The notes under the pieces: generated by a model
What the model saw: the letters and a program-made list of their open reading frames with translations, nothing else
Databases searched by the model: none
What the model was told of the DNA's origin: nothing
Assembly (NCBI GenBank): GCA_903927965.1
Contig: CAIYPA010000280.1
Coordinates: 1-34,433, forward strand
Source: an uncultured Bacteroidia bacterium
GTDB taxonomy: Bacteria; Bacteroidota; Bacteroidia; Bacteroidales; Prolixibacteraceae
DNA length: 34,433 nucleotides
Reading direction: 5' to 3'
In this document: piece after piece, positions 1 to 7,118 of the stretch
Layout: each line of letters begins with the position of its first letter
Position numbering within the stretch: position 1 is the first letter of the stretch
Made by a program: the position numbers and the translations under genes

Positions 1-651
1 CATCAAGACATTGAAGGTGTATATTTGATTTTTGAGAATAACTTTTCCAGTAAGCAAATCAAAGATTTTGACTACTTGTTAAATGCTTTAAAATTTATCA
101 AGATATTAAAAGACAATCAAATGGAAGTGCATTTGGGGTATAATAACACAGAAGCACTTTTATTTAGTATTGCAATGCCAGATTCAGTTTCAATAGGATC
201 TTATGAAAACTTACGTTCATTTGGAATCAAACGTTTTCAAGATATGGAAAAAAGTCCGATGAGGGCACCGAATGCAAGATTATACAGTACACAGCTTCTG
301 CAATGGGTAGATTACGAATACATACAGGCAATGAAAGTGTTAATGCCTGATTATGAGCACTACTTTGACAATTCGGAGTTTAAGCCGCTTATGTTTAAAC
401 CTGAGTTCAAGTGGCATTTTGCAAAACCAGAGCCATACAAGCATTATTTCTATGTTTTCGACAAGCAAATAAAAAGTTTACCTAATATCCAGGAAAATCG
501 AATCGAAGAATTGAAGCTCACAATCAAAAATGCTTTAAAATTGTTTAAGGAGATTGAAACTAAAGTTCTTTTGGATGATGATAGCAATGGTTCTCATCTA
601 CCCACTTGGTACAATGTAGTTAATGCTTTTCAAAATGAATTAACAATTTAG
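1..651 (+). CDS. Unrecognised protein, 5' end outside window
   Basis: The frame is open from the first base of the window to a TAG at 649-651, so only the C-terminal 216 codons are visible and the true start lies upstream. The TTG at base 25 is only an in-frame codon, not a convincing start. I do not recognise the family. The protein looks soluble, with no membrane segment or signal peptide, and is rich in aromatic residues. A segment near visible residue 60 (DSVSIGSYENL) faintly recalls TIM-barrel tRNA-guanine-transglycosylase-like folds, but too weakly to name it. The next gene starts 2 bases after this stop, so the two are almost certainly translated from one message and may work together. 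It sits at the upstream edge of a type I restriction-modification locus, which suggests but does not prove a defence role. Confidence 0.75.
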   Translation, partial: HQDIEGVYLIFENNFSSKQIKDFDYLLNALKFIKILKDNQMEVHLGYNNTEALLFSIAMPDSVSIGSYENLRSFGIKRFQDMEKSPMRAPNARLYSTQLLQWVDYEYIQAMKVLMPDYEHYFDNSEFKPLMFKPEFKWHFAKPEPYKHYFYVFDKQIKSLPNIQENRIEELKLTIKNALKLFKEIETKVLLDDDSNGSHLPTWYNVVNAFQNELTI

Positions 652-653
652 AA

Positions 654-1106
654 ATGTTCGCAACAGAGCAAGAGATGTCATTTCTGTTTGAAAAATTTCT
701 GAAAGCCAATTTCGGAAATTCATATCTAAAAGAATGTCAAGGATTATTTGGCGTACCGGATTTTGTGTTTTGTGCCAAACAAAAAAAAGATGTTTCCATT
801 ATTTCATTTGAGTTAAAATTGAAAAATTGGAAAAGGGCTGCTAAACAAGCATTTCGTTACAAAAGCTTCTCTCACGTTTCTTATGTGGTTCTTGCCAGCA
901 GAAGTGCAAATGCAGCATTGAACAACATTGAAATATTTGAAAAATACAATATTGGTTTGGCGAAATTTGACAACAACAGCGATTTTGAGATTCTTTTTAA
1001 GCCAGAGTCAAACCTACCTTATTCGGAAAATTTACATCAAAAAATAGTTGAATCCTTAAGCATGTGTAGCGAAAAATCAAAGAATATTCAAACCCTTGTT
1101 AGATAA
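654..1106 (+). CDS. Small PD-(D/E)XK nuclease-like protein
   Basis: This 150-residue protein has the layout of a PD-(D/E)XK nuclease core. Residues GVPDF place P35-D36 in a turn, and a beta strand carrying F-E-L-K puts E53 and K55 seventeen residues later. A basic helix with the pattern KQAFRY (64-69) follows, as is common in this fold, then a hydrophobic strand (SYVVLAS). The acid-acid-lysine triad is therefore complete, unlike many degenerate members. The gene starts 2 bases after the previous stop and ends 8 bases before hsdS, so it lies in one transcription unit with both. It could be an effector nuclease paired with the upstream unknown protein, or an accessory factor of the restriction system. 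It is far too small to be HsdR. The fold call rests on motif spacing only. Confidence 0.65.
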   Translation: MFATEQEMSFLFEKFLKANFGNSYLKECQGLFGVPDFVFCAKQKKDVSIISFELKLKNWKRAAKQAFRYKSFSHVSYVVLASRSANAALNNIEIFEKYNIGLAKFDNNSDFEILFKPESNLPYSENLHQKIVESLSMCSEKSKNIQTLVR

Positions 1107-1114
1107 GTTATTAA

Positions 1115-2371
1115 ATGGAGCAATTATTTAACGGGAAAGAAATACCAAAGCATTGGAAAATTAAAAGTATGGGTGAGGTCTTTATGATTGAAAGGGGCGG
1201 TTCACCCAGGCCAATCGAAGATTTTATCACTAATGATGATAATGGTATTAATTGGATAAAAATTGGGGATACTAAAGGGGTCGTAAAGTACATTCATCAT
1301 ACTAAAGAAAAAATCAAACCTGAAGGAGCTATAAGATCAAGAATGGTTTTTGAGGACGATTTCTTGTTATCAAACTCAATGAGTTTTGGTAAACCATTTA
1401 TTATGAAGACGAAAGGTTGCATCCATGACGGTTGGTTGGTAATAAGGAAGAATACTTTAATCGACAATAATTACCTTTACTATATACTGAGTTCATCGCT
1501 TGTATATCAACAGTTCACAAATTTGGCAAAAGGCTCTACAGTCAAAAATCTTAATATTGAGGCTGTTAAACAAGTTGTGATTCAGTTTCCTCCACTCGCC
1601 GAGCAGCTTTCCATTGTCTCCAAAATCGAAGAACTCCTCAGCGACCTCGAAAACGGCAAACAGCAATTGCTGACCGCACAACAACAATTAAAAATCTACC
1701 GGCAAAGTTTGCTGAAATGGGCATTTGAAGGAAAGCTTACCAACAAAAATGTGAAAGATGATGAGCTGCCTAAAGGTTGGAAATGGGTTAAATTAATTGA
1801 AATAACATCCGTCTTAGGAGACGGATTACACGGTACTCCAAATTACTCAGAAGACGGTGATTATTACTTTATAAATGGGAATAATTTAACCGATGGTAGA
1901 ATTGAAATTAAAGAAAACACAAAGCGTGTAGATTTTTCAGAATATGAGAAATATAAAAAACCATTAAATGAGAGTACCATATTTGTTTCAATTAATGGGA
2001 GTATTGGATATACAGCATTTTATAATAATGAAAAAGTTATTTTAGGAAAGAGTGCTTGCTATTTTAATGTATTGAAATCCACTGATAAGAAATATCTGAG
2101 ATATTGCCTATTAAGTCAGCGTTTTTTAAACTATGCAAACAAGAATGCCACTGGTAGCACAATAAAGAATGTAGGACTAAAAACAATGCGAGATTTTGAA
2201 ATTCCGTTTCCATCATTCTCAGAACAGCAACTTATTGTCGATGAACTCGAAAGCAAACTTACTTTTTGTGATAAAATAGAAGAGACCATCAGCCAAAGCT
2301 TGTTGCAGGCGGAATCGTTAAGGCAAAGTATATTGAAGAAGGCATTTGAAGGGAAATTGGTGAATTTTTAA
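1115..2371 (+). CDS. hsdS: Type I restriction-modification specificity subunit HsdS
   Basis: HsdS reads the target DNA sequence and docks HsdM (and HsdR) onto it. At 418 residues it has the usual length and two-part plan. Target recognition domain 1 occupies about residues 5-150. A conserved spacer follows with FPPLAEQ near 157-163, a glutamine-rich coiled coil and RQSLLKWAFEGKLT. A second recognition domain opens with LPKGWKW and runs to about 365. A matching second spacer starts at FPSFSEQ and ends with RQSILKKAFEGKL. The repeated EQ-coiled-coil-FEGKL block gives the pseudo-dimeric architecture of the family. The first spacer (about 1590-1760) is visibly richer in G and C than the AT-rich recognition domains, as expected if these have been swapped by recombination. 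The order is unusual: hsdS lies upstream and an unrelated cassette separates it from hsdM. Confidence 0.95.
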   Translation: MEQLFNGKEIPKHWKIKSMGEVFMIERGGSPRPIEDFITNDDNGINWIKIGDTKGVVKYIHHTKEKIKPEGAIRSRMVFEDDFLLSNSMSFGKPFIMKTKGCIHDGWLVIRKNTLIDNNYLYYILSSSLVYQQFTNLAKGSTVKNLNIEAVKQVVIQFPPLAEQLSIVSKIEELLSDLENGKQQLLTAQQQLKIYRQSLLKWAFEGKLTNKNVKDDELPKGWKWVKLIEITSVLGDGLHGTPNYSEDGDYYFINGNNLTDGRIEIKENTKRVDFSEYEKYKKPLNESTIFVSINGSIGYTAFYNNEKVILGKSACYFNVLKSTDKKYLRYCLLSQRFLNYANKNATGSTIKNVGLKTMRDFEIPFPSFSEQQLIVDELESKLTFCDKIEETISQSLLQAESLRQSILKKAFEGKLVNF

Positions 2372-2373
2372 CC

Positions 2374-2404
2374 TATGAAAAGAGTTCTGGTAATATTATC
2401 TTTG
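2374..2404 (+). promoter_or_regulatory. Bacteroidota-type promoter for the ATPase cassette
   Basis: A perfect -7 box TATCTTTG lies at 2397-2404. Exactly 19 bases upstream is TATG (2374-2377), one mismatch from the -33 consensus TTTG. The predicted transcript starts near 2410, 15 bases before the ATPase start codon. This gives the ATPase, nuclease-like gene and hsdM a promoter of their own, separate from hsdS. Predicted from consensus only. Confidence 0.6.
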
Positions 2405-2424
2405 TAAATCGTAATACTTTAAAA

Positions 2425-3591
2425 ATGGAACATTTAAAGGTAAACTCATTTGGACCTATCAGGGAAGCAGATATAAGATTTGGGGACCTCACCTTGTTCG
2501 TGGGTCCACAGGCAAGTGGTAAAAGCATTCTTCTTCAATTGGTGAAGTTGATTATGGACAGGTATAATATTCCATCCGTTCTCAAACAGAATAATTATGA
2601 ATGGGGTAAGAAGAATGAAAATTTTCTTGACCTTTTTTTTGGAGAGAGTATGTCATCTATTTGGAATTCAGAAACTAAGATTGAATTTGATGAGAAGGAA
2701 TACATTTTATCCTCTTTCCTGACAAAGCAAGGGGTAAGAGAAAGCTCAAAAACCGAGAAACTATTTTACATTCCAGCACAACGCGTTGTGACAATGAGCC
2801 AGGGATGGCCAAGGGCTTTCGGAACATTCGATATTGGAGACCCATTTGTCCTAAAACAGTTCAGTGAGTCCATCCGTGTTTTAATGGAGAAAGAGACAAT
2901 CAATGGAGATGGGAAACAAACAAACGTTTTTCCGAAATCCAACCGAATTAAAGAACCTCTCCGAAAAATATTGGATGAAAGTATTTTTCATGGTGCCAGT
3001 GTAGAATCTGACAATTCAAGTTTAAAAAGAAGGTTTCTGTTAAAGGTTGGAGAAAGTAAACTTCCCTTTATGACATGGAGCGCCGGACAAAAAGAGTTTA
3101 TGCCCCTTCTGCTTTCACTCTACTATCTGATGCCATCCTCTAAAGTAAATCTGAGAAATGATATTAAAGCGGTTATCATAGAAGAGCCCGAAATGGGATT
3201 GCACCCAAAGGCCATTCAAGCCTTAATGGTAGTTTTTCTTGAACTGATTGCCAGAGGCTACAAAATAATCATCTCGACCCATTCCCCCGTATTATTGGAG
3301 CTGCTTTGGGCAATGAATTATATTAAGAAATTCAATGGTACTCCAGCTGATCTATTTGAATTGTTCTCACTTGAAAAAAATGCTTCAATGAGCACCACTT
3401 TTAAAACGATAATTAGCAATAAAACTTTTGCAACCTACTTTTTTGAACAGAATGTTAATGGTGTTTCAATTAAAGATATTTCATCACTTGATGCCGGGAG
3501 CGATGATAAAGCAATCTCTAATTGGGGAGGGTTGACAGATTTTTCATCAAAAGCAGGTGATGTTGTTTCCAAACTTGTTGCAAATGAGTAG
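2425..3591 (+). CDS. AAA-family (ABC/SMC-like) ATPase of a defence cassette
   Basis: This 388-residue protein is a soluble ATPase of the AAA_15/AAA_21 type related to OLD, PtuA and RecF proteins. It opens with the family signature LKVNSFGPI. Walker A is GPQASGKS (27-34), an ABC-signature-like SAGQKE runs from S219, Walker B is AVIIEEPE with E253/E254, then GLHP, and the switch histidine is in THSP (H286). The C-terminal 100 residues carry no TOPRIM or HNH motif I can see, so any nuclease activity must come from a partner. The next gene overlaps this one by 8 bases (ATGAGTAG), a strong sign of coupled translation. ATPases of this class normally sense or gate a toxic effector in two-gene anti-phage systems. 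By position, between hsdS and hsdM, it resembles anticodon-nuclease guards such as PrrC, but it is not homologous to PrrC by any motif I can see. Confidence 0.88.
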   Translation: MEHLKVNSFGPIREADIRFGDLTLFVGPQASGKSILLQLVKLIMDRYNIPSVLKQNNYEWGKKNENFLDLFFGESMSSIWNSETKIEFDEKEYILSSFLTKQGVRESSKTEKLFYIPAQRVVTMSQGWPRAFGTFDIGDPFVLKQFSESIRVLMEKETINGDGKQTNVFPKSNRIKEPLRKILDESIFHGASVESDNSSLKRRFLLKVGESKLPFMTWSAGQKEFMPLLLSLYYLMPSSKVNLRNDIKAVIIEEPEMGLHPKAIQALMVVFLELIARGYKIIISTHSPVLLELLWAMNYIKKFNGTPADLFELFSLEKNASMSTTFKTIISNKTFATYFFEQNVNGVSIKDISSLDAGSDDKAISNWGGLTDFSSKAGDVVSKLVANE

Positions 3592-4066
3592 TAAACAAAA
3601 AACGAAGAAGAAAACATTCAGGCAAGCAGTTGAATCTACTCCTGAAGTTCGAATGTGTTTTCAGGAAGGAAAACTAGCCATTTTAAACAAGGAACGGAAC
3701 AAGGTTGAATTAACCGATTCACGCAAATGTGGAGGAAGTTTATTTATCGACCAATGCCTGATCGACCAAGGTATGTATCCGCAAGATAATCGTTGGGATT
3801 ATGCTGTTGATTATAGTGGTGAAGTATTCTTTATTGAGGTGCATACAGCAAGTACAGGTGAAGTAAGTACAGTTTTAAGTAAGTTGACTTGGTTAAAAGA
3901 TTGGCTTATCCATAAAGCACCTGAAATAAATAGTCTGAGAGCTAAAACCAAAACTCCATTTTACTGGGTGCAATCGAATGGCTACCATATACTTTCAAAT
4001 TCATCGCAGGAACGGCTTGTTATTCAGAAAGGGCTGAAACCAATATCTAAACTTGTATTAAAATAG
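3584..4066 (+). CDS. Small putative nuclease partner of the ATPase
   Basis: I choose ATG 3584, which overlaps the ATPase stop in ATGAGTAG. An upstream ATG at 3557 would add nine residues and lengthen the overlap. The resulting 160-residue protein has a basic N-terminus (KQKTKKK), a conserved-looking GGSLFIDQ (50-57), then RWDYAVDY with D72 followed by a strand FFIEVHTA carrying E85-V86-H87, and E93. The spacing D-x12-E-x-H resembles a PD-(D/E)XK core in which the usual lysine is replaced by histidine. I regard this as a divergent restriction-endonuclease-like fold, not a proven nuclease. Four bases separate it from hsdM, so it is co-transcribed. Its tight pairing with the ATPase suggests an effector held in check by that protein. 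It could also be a structural partner without catalysis. Confidence 0.7.
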   Translation: MSSKQKTKKKTFRQAVESTPEVRMCFQEGKLAILNKERNKVELTDSRKCGGSLFIDQCLIDQGMYPQDNRWDYAVDYSGEVFFIEVHTASTGEVSTVLSKLTWLKDWLIHKAPEINSLRAKTKTPFYWVQSNGYHILSNSSQERLVIQKGLKPISKLVLK

Positions 4067-4070
4067 AATA

Positions 4071-5585
4071 ATGAGCAACAACACCTCTTCAATAGTCTCC
4101 AAAGTATGGTCATTCTGTAACCCCCTGCGCGATGTGGGTGTGGGTTACGGCGATTATCTGGAGCAACTGACCTATCTGCTGTTTTTAAAAATGGCAGACG
4201 AATACAGCAAACCGCCCTATAACAGGCAATTGAATATTCCCAAAGAATACAACTGGGAAAGCCTCACAGGTGTCAAGGGTGCTGCCCTCGAAGTGCATTA
4301 TGTGACCGTACTTCGCGAGTTGAGCACACAGAAAGGAATTTTGGGCCAGATTTTTACAAAGAGCCAGAACAAGATCCAGGACCCTGCCATGCTTGCAAAG
4401 ATCATCGACATGATCGACAGTGAACAATGGCTCGTGATGGGTGCCGATGTGAAAGGCGATATTTATGAGAAACTGCTGGAACAGAATGCCCAGGATGTCA
4501 AAAGTGGTGCAGGACAATATTTCACCCCAAGGCCATTGATCAGGGCAATGGTGGAATGTATTCAGCCCCAACCCATGAAAACAATTGCAGACCCTGCCTG
4601 TGGTACAGGAGGGTTCTTTTTGGCAGTGTATGATTATCTGGTGGCAAACAACAAACTGGATAAAGACCAAAACAAGTTTATCAAGCTTCAAACCTTTTAT
4701 GGTAATGAGATTGTGGCAGGAACAAGAAGGCTGGCATTAATGAACATGTTCCTTCACAACATCGGCGATATCGACAGTGACAATTTTATTTCACCTGCCG
4801 ATGCCTTGATAGCTGCTTCCCCAATCACCTATGATTATGTGTTGGCCAATCCGCCATTTGGCAAAAAAAGCAGTCAGACATTTACCAACGATGAAGGTGA
4901 ACAGGAAAAGGATGATTTAACCTACAACCGTCAGGATTTTTGGGCAACCACCAGCAACAAGCAATTGAATTTTGTACAACATATCCGGTCAATGCTCAAA
5001 ACAACAGGATTGGCAGCAGTTGTAGTACCTGATAATGTGTTGTTTGAGGGTGGGGCAGGTGAAACAGTAAGAAAGAAATTGTTGGAAACAACAGACCTGC
5101 ATACGATACTAAGGTTGCCAACAGGAATTTTCTATGCTCAGGGAGTTAAAGCCAATGTAATCTTCTTCGACAACAAACCTGCAAGCAAAGACCCCTGGAC
5201 AAAAGAAGTCTGGGTTTATGATTACCGAACAAATGTCCATCACACATTAAAGAAGAACCCGTTAAAGCTGGATGACCTGAGGGATTTTATCACGTGCTAC
5301 AATCCATCAAACAGATTTAAAAGAAAGGAGACCTGGGCGCCCTTCCGCACCCTGAGCGAAGTCGAAGGGCGCGAAAGTGAAGAAGGAAGATGGAGAAAGT
5401 TCAGCTATGAGGAGATCATTGCCAGGGACAAAACCAGTCTGGACATTACCTGGTTAAAGGACAAATCATTGGCTGATCTGGATAATTTACCTGATCCTGA
5501 AACAATTGCAGAAGACATCATTGAAAATCTGGAAGCTGGGTTGGAGAGTTTCAGGGAGATCATGATTAAATTGAATATGAAATAA
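4071..5585 (+). CDS. hsdM: Type I restriction-modification DNA methyltransferase subunit HsdM
   Basis: HsdM transfers a methyl group from S-adenosylmethionine to adenine N6 at the site chosen by HsdS. The 504 residues show the HsdM N-terminal helical domain (GYGDYLEQLTYLLFLKMADE), the SGAGQYFTPR motif, the SAM-binding DPACGTGG starting at D174 and the catalytic NPPF starting at N260. The C-terminus has the typical RDKTSLDITW and NLEAGLESF segments. Codons 423-434 (APFRTLSEVEGR) interrupt a conserved stretch between RKETW and the E-G-R-W-R-K-F-S segment. They are exactly encoded by a 36-bp palindromic insertion, described separately. No matching hsdR is seen, so it must lie elsewhere, probably upstream. 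The base composition is less AT-rich than the two genes before it, suggesting the locus is a mosaic. Confidence 0.96.
   Translation: MSNNTSSIVSKVWSFCNPLRDVGVGYGDYLEQLTYLLFLKMADEYSKPPYNRQLNIPKEYNWESLTGVKGAALEVHYVTVLRELSTQKGILGQIFTKSQNKIQDPAMLAKIIDMIDSEQWLVMGADVKGDIYEKLLEQNAQDVKSGAGQYFTPRPLIRAMVECIQPQPMKTIADPACGTGGFFLAVYDYLVANNKLDKDQNKFIKLQTFYGNEIVAGTRRLALMNMFLHNIGDIDSDNFISPADALIAASPITYDYVLANPPFGKKSSQTFTNDEGEQEKDDLTYNRQDFWATTSNKQLNFVQHIRSMLKTTGLAAVVVPDNVLFEGGAGETVRKKLLETTDLHTILRLPTGIFYAQGVKANVIFFDNKPASKDPWTKEVWVYDYRTNVHHTLKKNPLKLDDLRDFITCYNPSNRFKRKETWAPFRTLSEVEGRESEEGRWRKFSYEEIIARDKTSLDITWLKDKSLADLDNLPDPETIAEDIIENLEAGLESFREIMIKLNMK
5337..5372 (+). repeat. 36-bp REP-like palindrome inserted in frame in hsdM
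   Basis: Arms GCGCCCTTC (5337-5345) and GAAGGGCGC (5364-5372) are perfect 9-bp complements around an 18-base loop. Within it CCCTGAGCGAAGTCGAAGGG matches a kind of dispersed palindrome common in Bacteroidota intergenic DNA. The element is exactly 12 codons and starts on a codon boundary, so hsdM stays open. From memory of HsdM proteins, KETW should run almost directly into the E-x-E-G-R-W segment. Confidence 0.8.
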
Positions 5586-5609
5586 TTATACAGCTATTTT
5601 TAATTTTGA

Positions 5610-5810
5610 CCCGGTGCTGGTTCCATCCATGTAAGCAATATCGAATGGGGAAGTTTGAGGTTGCAAATTGAAACCTCAAAGGGGGAACTTGAAAGCAAGT
5701 ACGATACCCATTCAGGGACGTTTACGGATGCAATCAGATATTTATTGGATAAGGCCAAAATAGACACAAACTATAAACAGCGCAACCGGATCGGGTATAA
5801 ACCAGATTGA
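5610..5810 (+). pseudogene. Probable 3' remnant of a lost gene
   Basis: An open frame of 66 codons follows a TGA at 5607-5609 and ends in TGA 5808-5810. It contains no ATG. Its translation has a protein-like composition (for example GELESKYDTHSGTFTDAIRY and LLDKAK), which suggests the tail of a gene whose front was lost. Family unknown. It also holds a 9-bp hairpin, TTTGAGGTT (5654-5662) with AACCTCAAA (5672-5680), which could help end hsdM transcription. It might be fortuitous, as the gap is only 256 bases. Confidence 0.35.
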
Positions 5811-5841
5811 CAATTGTTTTACATCAAATAGAATTTAATCC

Positions 5842-6861
5842 ATGAAAAACAACAGTGAAATACTTATCTATCAAAATCTGGATGGCAATATTAAGGTTGA
5901 CGTAACAATTGAAGATGAAACGGTCTGGTTAAGTCAATCTCAAATGGCTGAATTGTTTGGAAAAGGGCGTACTACAATCACCGAACACATTAAAAACATA
6001 TTTGAAGAAGGTGAATTAGACGAAAATGTGGTATGTCGGGATTTCCGACATACCACGCAGCACGGTGCAATTGAGGGTAAAACACAAGAAGCTACAGTAA
6101 AACATTACAATCTTGATGTGATCATTTCGGTTGGTTACCGCGTAAAATCGTTACAAGGTACTCAGTTCCGCATATGGGCTACACAACGGTTAAGGGAGCA
6201 CATCATCAAAGGATTTACCTTAAATGACGAACGTTTCAAGTCGGGCAGTTCGATGAATTACTTCCGTGAACTTCTGGAACGGATACGGGAAATCAGGATT
6301 TCCGAGAAAGTTTTTTATCAACAGGTCAAAGACATATATACCACAAGTATCGACTACGACCCATCCTTAGAAATGACCCAACAATTCTTCAAAGTTGTGC
6401 AGAACAAATTTCTATGGGCAATCAGTGGACAAACAGCGGCAGAACTGATCTATTATCGTGCCAACTCTCAAAGCCCTCAGATGGGTCTGACATCTACAAA
6501 GGTGCACGAACGATTAAGGAAAACCGATATTGAAGTGGCCAAGAACTATCTTACTGAACAAGAGGTTTCTGCACTAAAATTACTTGTTGAACAATACCTT
6601 GCATTTGCCGAATCACAAGCATTGGCGCACAAACCAATGTATATGAAAGATTGGATCGAAAAGCTGGGCATGATCCTGACAATGAATGAGAGAAACATCC
6701 TTACCCATGCCGGAAAGATAACCCATGAAATCGCAATGAAGAAAGCCGAAGATGAGTATGAAAAGTACATAGCCCAAACTAAACTGGATGAAAAGAATCA
6801 AAGTTTAAAGGAATTGGACGAGGACCTTAAACGTGTAAAACGAATAGCAAAAGGCAAATAA
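5842..6861 (+). CDS. RhuM-family protein (virulence protein / KilA-N-like)
   Basis: This 339-residue protein belongs to the RhuM family (COG3943), often found in Salmonella islands and beside type I restriction loci. The N-terminal part reads as a DNA-binding domain, with WLSQSQMAELFGKGRTTITE (about 30-49) as a helix-turn-helix-like segment. The family hallmark follows: YNLDVIISVGYRVKS, then QFRIWATQRLREHIIKGF. The C-terminal half is helical with a charged coiled-coil end. Biochemical function is not established for the family. Residues 63-72 (VVCRDFRHTT) are encoded by a perfect 29-bp palindrome. It stands 256 bases from hsdM in the same direction and probably has its own start of transcription. 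It marks the downstream end of the island. Confidence 0.9.
   Translation: MKNNSEILIYQNLDGNIKVDVTIEDETVWLSQSQMAELFGKGRTTITEHIKNIFEEGELDENVVCRDFRHTTQHGAIEGKTQEATVKHYNLDVIISVGYRVKSLQGTQFRIWATQRLREHIIKGFTLNDERFKSGSSMNYFRELLERIREIRISEKVFYQQVKDIYTTSIDYDPSLEMTQQFFKVVQNKFLWAISGQTAAELIYYRANSQSPQMGLTSTKVHERLRKTDIEVAKNYLTEQEVSALKLLVEQYLAFAESQALAHKPMYMKDWIEKLGMILTMNERNILTHAGKITHEIAMKKAEDEYEKYIAQTKLDEKNQSLKELDEDLKRVKRIAKGK
6028..6056 (+). repeat. 29-bp perfect palindrome inside the rhuM reading frame
   Basis: Arms GTGGTATGTCGG (6028-6039) and CCGACATACCAC (6045-6056) are perfect 12-bp complements around a 5-base loop GATTT. The segment begins on a codon boundary and encodes part of the linker between the DNA-binding-like region and the YNLDVIISVGYRV core. 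A hairpin this perfect is unlikely in coding sequence by chance. Confidence 0.85.
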
Positions 6862-7118
6862 ATCTCTATTTCCTAATTTATCCAGTTCCCTTTCGATTCG
6901 GTGAACCAGATAGAACGGCAGGTTGATTAGTGTGAATTCGGTCCCGGCGATTGTTCTTGCCTTCTCGACCGAATAGGGACCTTGCCAGACCCATTCGGTA
7001 AATTATTAAAATGTAGAAAAGTCAGGGTAATTTAAAGCAAACCACATAATCTGTTGTTATTCAATTCATTGAATAACAACAGAAGGTGCAGATAATTTAC
7101 ACGCATCATTTGCCCGTT
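6862..7118. other. Intergenic junction at the end of the island
   Basis: No complete gene is visible. On the minus strand a Met-less frame is open from 7002 down to 6805. Its first 43 or so codons look protein-like (FYLVHRIERELDKLG) before it runs antisense into rhuM, so it may be a remnant of a gene cut by the island. The distal part holds the 32-bp hairpin listed separately. Confidence 0.4.
7051..7082. terminator. 32-bp hairpin between convergent rhuM and ABC-F genes
   Basis: CTGTTGTTATTCAAT (7051-7065) and ATTGAATAACAACAG (7068-7082) are perfect 15-bp complements with a 2-base loop. The hairpin lies 36 bases beyond the ABC-F stop and about 190 bases beyond rhuM. It has no clear T run, so it could be a weak bidirectional terminator or an element boundary. 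Confidence 0.5.

Follow-up and report, generated by a model that had tools for sequence, protein, structure and literature searches.

The pair of genes lodged between hsdS and hsdM in this DNA of an uncultured Bacteroidia bacterium is real, conserved and already catalogued as a candidate defence system, PDC-M56, and we judge it moderately likely that it constitutes an independent two-gene anti-phage module, in which an ABC-ATPase sensor (M56A) would control a PD-(D/E)XK-like nuclease (M56B), housed in a swappable cargo slot of a type I restriction (hsd) operon. What is new here is the fold assignment of M56B together with its variant site, the recurrent position of a promoter ahead of the cassette, and an embedding in hsd operons that is both recurrent and incidental.

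The window, that is, the whole stretch of 34,433 nucleotides analysed, carries in its first 7 kb, all on the + strand, two unassigned open reading frames (ORFs), hsdS, the ATPase gene, the partner gene, hsdM and a RhuM-family gene (Table 1). The nesting of the pair between hsdS and hsdM, proposed in an initial annotation of this DNA, is borne out by the ORF coordinates, with hsdM starting 4 bases past the partner's stop. GTG at 3557 is the first in-frame start of the partner, and with the ATG at 3584 the 8-base overlap with the ATPase stop described in that annotation holds, giving a protein of 160 residues and the same residue numbering. For hsdR, the window's own genome has its best matches on two contigs other than this one, C146 (covering query residues 1-238) and C289 (residues 200-938), and no 20-mer is shared between the stretches L114/L115 of these hsdR contigs and the window. 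In L114 (contig C289), an AAA ATPase gene at 202-1212 follows the hsdR fragment, which is most like the hsdR of locus L009. The ORF directly upstream of hsdS displays, by eye, a classical PD-(D/E)XK-like motif, PDF-x(n)-ELK; it has no Pfam, NCBIfam or PADLOC match up to E 1 and a weak one in PHROGs (E 0.074). This ORF and the one at 1-651 may represent a second cargo in the window's hsd operon.

Table 1. Features of the hsd operon and its cargo (coordinates of the window).
Feature	Position	Strand	Evidence or remark
ORF	1-651	+	
ORF, 150 aa	654-1106	+	5' of hsdS
hsdS, type I specificity subunit, 5' side of slot	1115-2371	+	Pfam Methylase_S E 1.4e-38; PADLOC Specificity_I
Bacteroidota-type -7 box TATCTTTG	2397-2404	+	28 bases before ATPase start; likely cassette promoter
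PDC-M56A: OLD/PtuA/Rad50-type ABC ATPase, 388 aa	2425-3591	+	PADLOC E 6.6e-161; Pfam AAA_21, AAA_15
PDC-M56B: PD-(D/E)XK-like protein (predicted), 160 aa	3584-4066	+	PADLOC E 1.7e-53; conserved residues; AF2; Foldseek
hsdM, type I N6-adenine methyltransferase, 3' side of slot	4071-5585	+	Pfam N6_Mtase E 3.4e-69, HsdM_N
RhuM-family gene, PADLOC PDC-S05, candidate defence gene after hsdM	5842-6861	+	Pfam Virulence_RhuM E 1.1e-102

In PADLOC-DB 2.0.0 the ATPase matches the PDC-M56A model over residues 1-386 of 388 and the partner matches PDC-M56B over profile positions 3-150 of 151, with the two genes adjacent and both models lacking a description. The pair is therefore already catalogued, and the idea that it is new to the catalogues, or an uncatalogued system, has to be given up. 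It is the same as PDC-M56 in both models and in gene order (an order found in 78/81 loci), with no difference found. The runner-up PADLOC ATPase model for M56A is AriA (E 3.4e-24), while PDC-M56B is the sole PADLOC match of the partner, for which Pfam, NCBIfam and PHROGs return nothing. The guilt-by-embedding set of candidates reportedly goes back to a preprint, Payne et al. 2024. A full-text literature search for PDC-M56 returned no paper naming it and no experiment on it, and the available sections of one further article contain nothing on M56 (PMC11514479). PDC denotes a phage (or putative) defence candidate. Excerpts of PMC12988326 describe such candidates as derived by guilt-by-embedding and unvalidated.

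M56A, an ABC-type ATPase, bears the four motifs with which the initial annotation had credited it: Walker A is GPQASGKS (27-34), the signature WSAGQKEF (218-225), Walker B VIIEEPEMGLHP (E253, E254), and the switch His H286. Across 75 aligned sequences, among them the window's, these motifs with the catalytic Glu are invariant or nearly so, residues G27, G32, K33, G221, Q222, E224, E253, E254 and H286 being strictly invariant, and a C-terminal WGG motif (W367-G368-G369) is also conserved, with G368 invariant. Pfam finds neither a TOPRIM nor an HNH domain, as had been asserted. Its AF2 model (pLDDT 90.8) has 19 residues in its longest helix and no long helical arm, and in Foldseek it is matched by retron IA, Septu PtuA and the heads of Rad50, SMC and RecN (E 1e-8 to 1e-6, query-normalised TM 0.33-0.46).

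The site of M56B is a conserved variant rather than a product of decay, judging by an alignment of 72 sequences, the window's included, that left out fragments, ORFs outside 135-195 aa, and loci L014 and L050, whose B frame had escaped the script. Nine of the 160 positions are invariant in it (G29, S52, P66, W71, D72, Y73, E85, H87 and K100), and position 56 is acidic throughout (71 D, 1 E). Most loci had been fetched by two peptide patterns, containing RWDY or E-x-H; E85/H87 are nonetheless present in 59/59 sequences that match the RWDY pattern only and D72 in 6/6 that match the E-x-H pattern only (6 further sequences match both patterns and 1 neither), and hence the conservation of E-x-H is no search artefact, while K100 and D56 fall outside both patterns. 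Compared with the D-x(n)-(D/E)-x-K site, D72-x12-E85 is present, the Lys position is taken by the invariant His87, and an invariant Lys100 lies in the next helix. The D72-x12-E85-x-H87 motif noticed at the outset thus stands in 72/72 sequences, whereas its description as degenerate does not, the variant being fixed and K100 likewise kept in 72/72.

Structure prediction makes it quite likely that M56B has a PD-(D/E)XK-like fold. Its AF2 model has a mean pLDDT of 95.8 and places D72 just before strand 73-77, E85 and H87 in strand 80-90, and K100 in helix 91-110. Foldseek matches to the PDB are individually weak (best E 0.024, none at E 0.001, and query-normalised TM <= 0.35 among the 50 matches listed), and those listed include FokI, Cdn1, Can2/Card1, Hjc, RecU, BspD6I, BamHI and cap-snatching endonucleases; we take 39 of the 50 to be PD-(D/E)XK nucleases, 2 to be ambiguous and 9 not to belong. 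Matches to a viral structure library are weak as well (best E 0.021), several of them being named endonuclease, restriction endonuclease or Holliday junction resolvase, and a profile search against solved structures gave 0 matches at E 10. The earlier suggestion of a restriction-endonuclease-like partner is supported by the model and the residues, with single fold matches that remain weak.

The pair spans several phyla but is patchy. M56B occurs in 6/395 genomes of the phylum, one of them being the window's, and a scan with the B alignment of contigs from 84,980 species gave 77 loci, which disposes of the notion that the pair is confined to the window's genome; the phyla represented are Bacteroidota, Ignavibacteriota, Cyanobacteria, Poribacteria, Planctomycetota, Chloroflexota and Pseudomonadota. 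Our tally of 81 loci consists of these 77, the window and three further loci, L001, L003 and L004 having been removed because they seem to duplicate the window, L049 and L044. In 78/81 of them A is immediately followed by B: a script scored 76 (among them a few in which one of the two genes is broken or cut by a contig end, e.g., L006, L037, L062), to which L014 and L050 are added; the three others comprise two contig edges (L020, L083) and an orphan partner gene (L005, 1489-1842) that has no adjoining ATPase gene in the 3.4 kb fetched. Searching from the ATPase side found M56A in 4/395 genomes of the class, and in the three other than the window's (L119, L120 and L117, the last probably identical in location with L035) the adjacent B keeps, by eye, the D, the E-x-H and the K. 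The pair in L120 (1408-3117) is very divergent, its partner having FDY for RWDY with D, E-x-H and K retained by eye, and one Poribacteria genome has two tandem A-B pairs (L051, 7119-10456).

Carriage by phages or plasmids found no backing: of 45 pattern matches in viral contigs none was confirmed as a relative, phages yielded no relative either, and the single plasmid match is distant (28.6% identity). Among 62 upstream and 62 downstream neighbours, chosen from 98 and 113, respectively, with 16 Poribacteria loci, duplicates, the window, and ORFs <100 aa and >1300 aa left out, the 25 commonest families listed include PbeA (4), Methylase_S (3) and type I methyltransferase (5), so that defence families recurring next to the pair are few, and many others are metabolic. 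In Poribacteria L057-L061, L066, L068 and L074 the pair sits, by ORF sizes, in a repeated chromosomal neighbourhood, which in L061 has a NUDIX gene before the pair and, behind it, genes for a MocA-type oxidoreductase and PhyH, a setting untypical of mobile defence genes. In L002 (1-1480) and L003 (1961-3436) a large gene directly follows the pair, with an N-terminus RelE/ParE-like by eye; in L002 it is a UvrD-type helicase by Pfam.

Scanning the loci with HsdS and HsdM profiles, and considering nearest neighbours of >= 100 aa, places the pair between hsdS and hsdM in 4/81 loci (the window, L009, L010 and L018), so that its recurrence at this junction in other genomes, raised by the initial annotation, is confirmed. 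An hsd gene stands on one side only in 2/81 (L032, L079), both neighbours are non-hsd in 62/81, and 12/81 have one visible side, which is non-hsd; because of these 12 and of L006, which could not be judged, the four embedded loci are a lower bound. In some further loci, e.g., L023 and L045, hsd genes lie a few kb off, and hsdS of L009 and L018 directly adjoins a gene whose protein has an HsdR-type helicase motif. On an ATPase tree built by a quick method, with SH-aLRT as its sole branch support, embedding takes 4 changes to explain, at least 3 of them imposed by well-supported branches; since shuffled labels also take 4.0, the embedded loci are not clustered on the tree. Read most simply, these sequences point to at least three separate insertions of the pair into the hsdS/hsdM junction, one old insertion with many losses since being the formal alternative. 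The closest relative of the window pair, L007 (90% identity), is preceded by HTH/peptidase and HigB-like genes and followed by a SWIM protein, with no hsd gene beside it.

The junction itself accepts other genes. Its sampling covered 29 HsdM relatives of the window (67-80% identical), the best-scoring of 41/395 genomes with a match (the window's among the 41), and M56 lies between hsdS and hsdM in 0/29 of the relatives examined. In 15/29, hsdS directly precedes hsdM; in the other 14 another ORF does, with a piece of hsdS further upstream in 8/14 (1.5 kb fetched) and no hsdS seen within the 1.5 kb fetched in L086, L088, L089, L107, L108 and L111. Ten of these 14 ORFs were scanned (9 by PADLOC, 9 by Pfam), and they comprise three Fic proteins (L087, L089, L108; the first two are SoFic by PADLOC), one each of YhcG/PDC-S02, RhuM-Fic/PDC-S23, PDDEXK_3 and a RecG-C/HTH protein, two IS200-transposase-like ORFs, and one without a match. 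In a related hsd operon (L102), a HEC-02A-like ATPase gene (173-1264, E 1.6e-105) comes just after hsdM. In one Bacteroidota type I lineage, the sampled sequences suggest, the hsdS/hsdM junction serves as a slot for cargo, which is this pair in some genomes and other candidate defence genes in others. That type I operons carry other genes is already described, in the available excerpts, for rloA/rloB, darTG2 and prrC: Campylobacter rloA and rloB overlap slightly within a type I hsd operon, with no function inferred for them (PMC2928727), and darTG2 of EPEC, a toxin-antitoxin pair, as well as a pair encoding an ATPase and an RNA-binding protein lie between hsdS and hsdR (PMC12255303). Like M56, rloA-rloB and darTG2 are pairs lodged in hsd operons, but by their description they belong to other families.

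The cassette was initially assigned a TATG-N19-TATCTTTG promoter. The string is literally present, with TATG at 2374-2377 followed by 19 bases and the -7 box, and the idea of a promoter of its own is supported; TATG as a -33 box is not, since it is not conserved among the upstream sequences of ATPase gene copies that were printed. Over the whole window TAnnTTTG occurs at chance level (38 versus 35.4 expected). At 20-36 bases before the ATPase start, by contrast, it is found in 16/43 Bacteroidota copies (taken broadly, with Ignavibacteria and three further same-phylum genomes) where 500 shuffles average 0.61 and reach 5 at most, including 4/4 of the hsd-embedded copies, and in 1/32 non-Bacteroidota copies against 0.27 expected; the interval -36..-20 was picked after the box positions had been seen, and the contrast is therefore somewhat flattered, though the excess is still large. 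A sigma-70 consensus scan of 1-7100 gave 22 sites versus 20.3 expected, too close to chance to be informative. The excess before the ATPase gene makes it probable that the cassette brings its own promoter, which would also read into hsdM.

Several known systems share the plan of an ATPase joined to a nuclease. Septu pairs its ATPase PtuA with an HNH nuclease, PtuB; the AriB of PARIS is a TOPRIM nuclease, PrrC and RloC are single fused proteins, and in Lamassu an SMC-type ATPase is coupled to a PD-(D/E)XK effector. Septu PtuA-PtuB and the PtuAB of retron Ec78/IA, like M56, consist of an ABC ATPase and a small nuclease, and are among the best structural matches of M56A, but the retron PtuAB nuclease is HNH by its structure titles, whereas M56B matches no HNH family, its site is PD-(D/E)XK-like and its model resembles PD-(D/E)XK. 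NsnB, presumably Menshen (E 2.2e-22), and the HEC-01 and HEC-02 ATPases (HEC-01A, 1.3e-16) belong to the same superfamily as M56A, at scores far below that of PDC-M56A; the Lamassu ATPase probably belongs there too. PARIS joins an ABC ATPase to a nuclease effector and senses Ocr, and PrrC is embedded in a type IC restriction locus and activated by T4 Stp, as described in excerpts of PMC12707154. M56 shares the ATPase-nuclease plan with AriA-AriB, and it is the AriA profile that is its runner-up, but no TOPRIM protein appears among the 50 structural matches of M56B listed and the protein has no family match that would indicate one; with PrrC it shares the tie of a nuclease to a type I locus, but M56 consists of two separate genes with a PD-(D/E)XK-like partner, and no PrrC or RloC model is found among the best 25 of 114 M56A matches. 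The initial statement that the pair matches none of Septu, PARIS and PrrC/RloC thus stands.

How the pair might act has several possible answers, and the one that its position first suggested, a guard that keeps quiet as long as the type I enzyme is active and kills the cell once a phage anti-restriction protein blocks that enzyme, now appears quite improbable. Its place inside an hsd operon, immediately before hsdM, and the precedents of PrrC and PARIS (excerpts of PMC12707154) speak for it, but with most copies of the pair found outside hsd loci its chief argument falls away; the nearest relative lives elsewhere, the embedded copies are scattered over the ATPase tree instead of forming one clade, and in the HsdM relatives the slot holds unrelated cargo and, in 0/29, the pair. 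The loci thus show no stable association with a restriction system that the pair would guard, and an obligate guard is unsupported by tally, tree and slot alike; nothing here favours anti-restriction proteins as the trigger, although they could still serve as one. A housekeeping pair for DNA repair or processing, akin to SbcCD or RecN, is also unlikely: the resemblance of M56A to Rad50, SMC and RecN heads, the repeated neighbourhood in many Poribacteria and the metabolic neighbours at many loci would fit it, but the pair is patchily present in both genome sets, enters hsd operons at scattered tree positions, and has an ATPase model devoid of the long helical arm.

Two further readings, together with one variant, concern what M56B does. 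It is unlikely to be a catalytically dead restriction-endonuclease-fold protein that serves A as a DNA-binding or structural subunit, for although the Lys of E-x-K has become His in 72/72 sequences, the retention of D56, D72, E85, H87 and K100 extends across phyla to divergent members, which a dead site would not require. There is also precedent for a displaced catalytic lysine in the influenza PA protein, where it lies about 15 residues after the Glu. Direct restriction in the manner of Septu or Gabija, a sub-case of the reading that we prefer in which A would recognise phage DNA ends or intermediates and B would cut phage DNA without suicide, is possible but doubtful: M56A is closest to PtuA (retron IA and Septu complexes) and to Rad50/SMC heads, which handle DNA, and the best matches of M56B include the DNA nucleases FokI and Hjc, but the same folds serve systems that harm the host (Can2 nucleases, a PARIS-type ATPase), and sequence is silent on the substrate. 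By analogy with cap-snatching nucleases of the influenza PA type, one may tentatively imagine, on a similarly modest footing, PDC-M56 as a functional anti-phage system of uncharacterised type, its ABC ATPase in control of a separate PD-(D/E)XK nuclease that has shifted its catalytic lysine out of E-x-K (now E-x-H) into the next helix and that possibly acts on RNA rather than DNA.

The reading that we prefer, an ATPase sensor controlling a nuclease in an independent module, would work as follows. M56A, an ATPase of the OLD/PtuA/AriA kind, would be sensor and scaffold, holding or positioning M56B. The latter would be a small nuclease that depends on metal and has a PD-(D/E)XK-like core; His87 occupies the place where Lys is usual, and the catalytic lysine is probably Lys100 of the next helix. 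A phage-linked signal would lead M56A, through ATP binding or hydrolysis, to activate or release M56B, which would then cut nucleic acid, either that of the phage (DNA) or that of the host (DNA or RNA), in the latter case causing growth arrest. The complex, the nuclease activity, the trigger and the antiviral function are what we infer for M56; both folds are backed by prediction, and sequence comparison establishes the conserved pairing and motifs, the promoter position and the repeated embedding. The module, with its own -7 promoter, would have lodged in the hsdS/hsdM junction of one type I lineage, in which the slot elsewhere holds other cargo. On this account nesting inside an hsd operon is poor ground for inferring functional coupling, and a defence candidate that had no mechanism would gain a concrete one, with five mutable residues.
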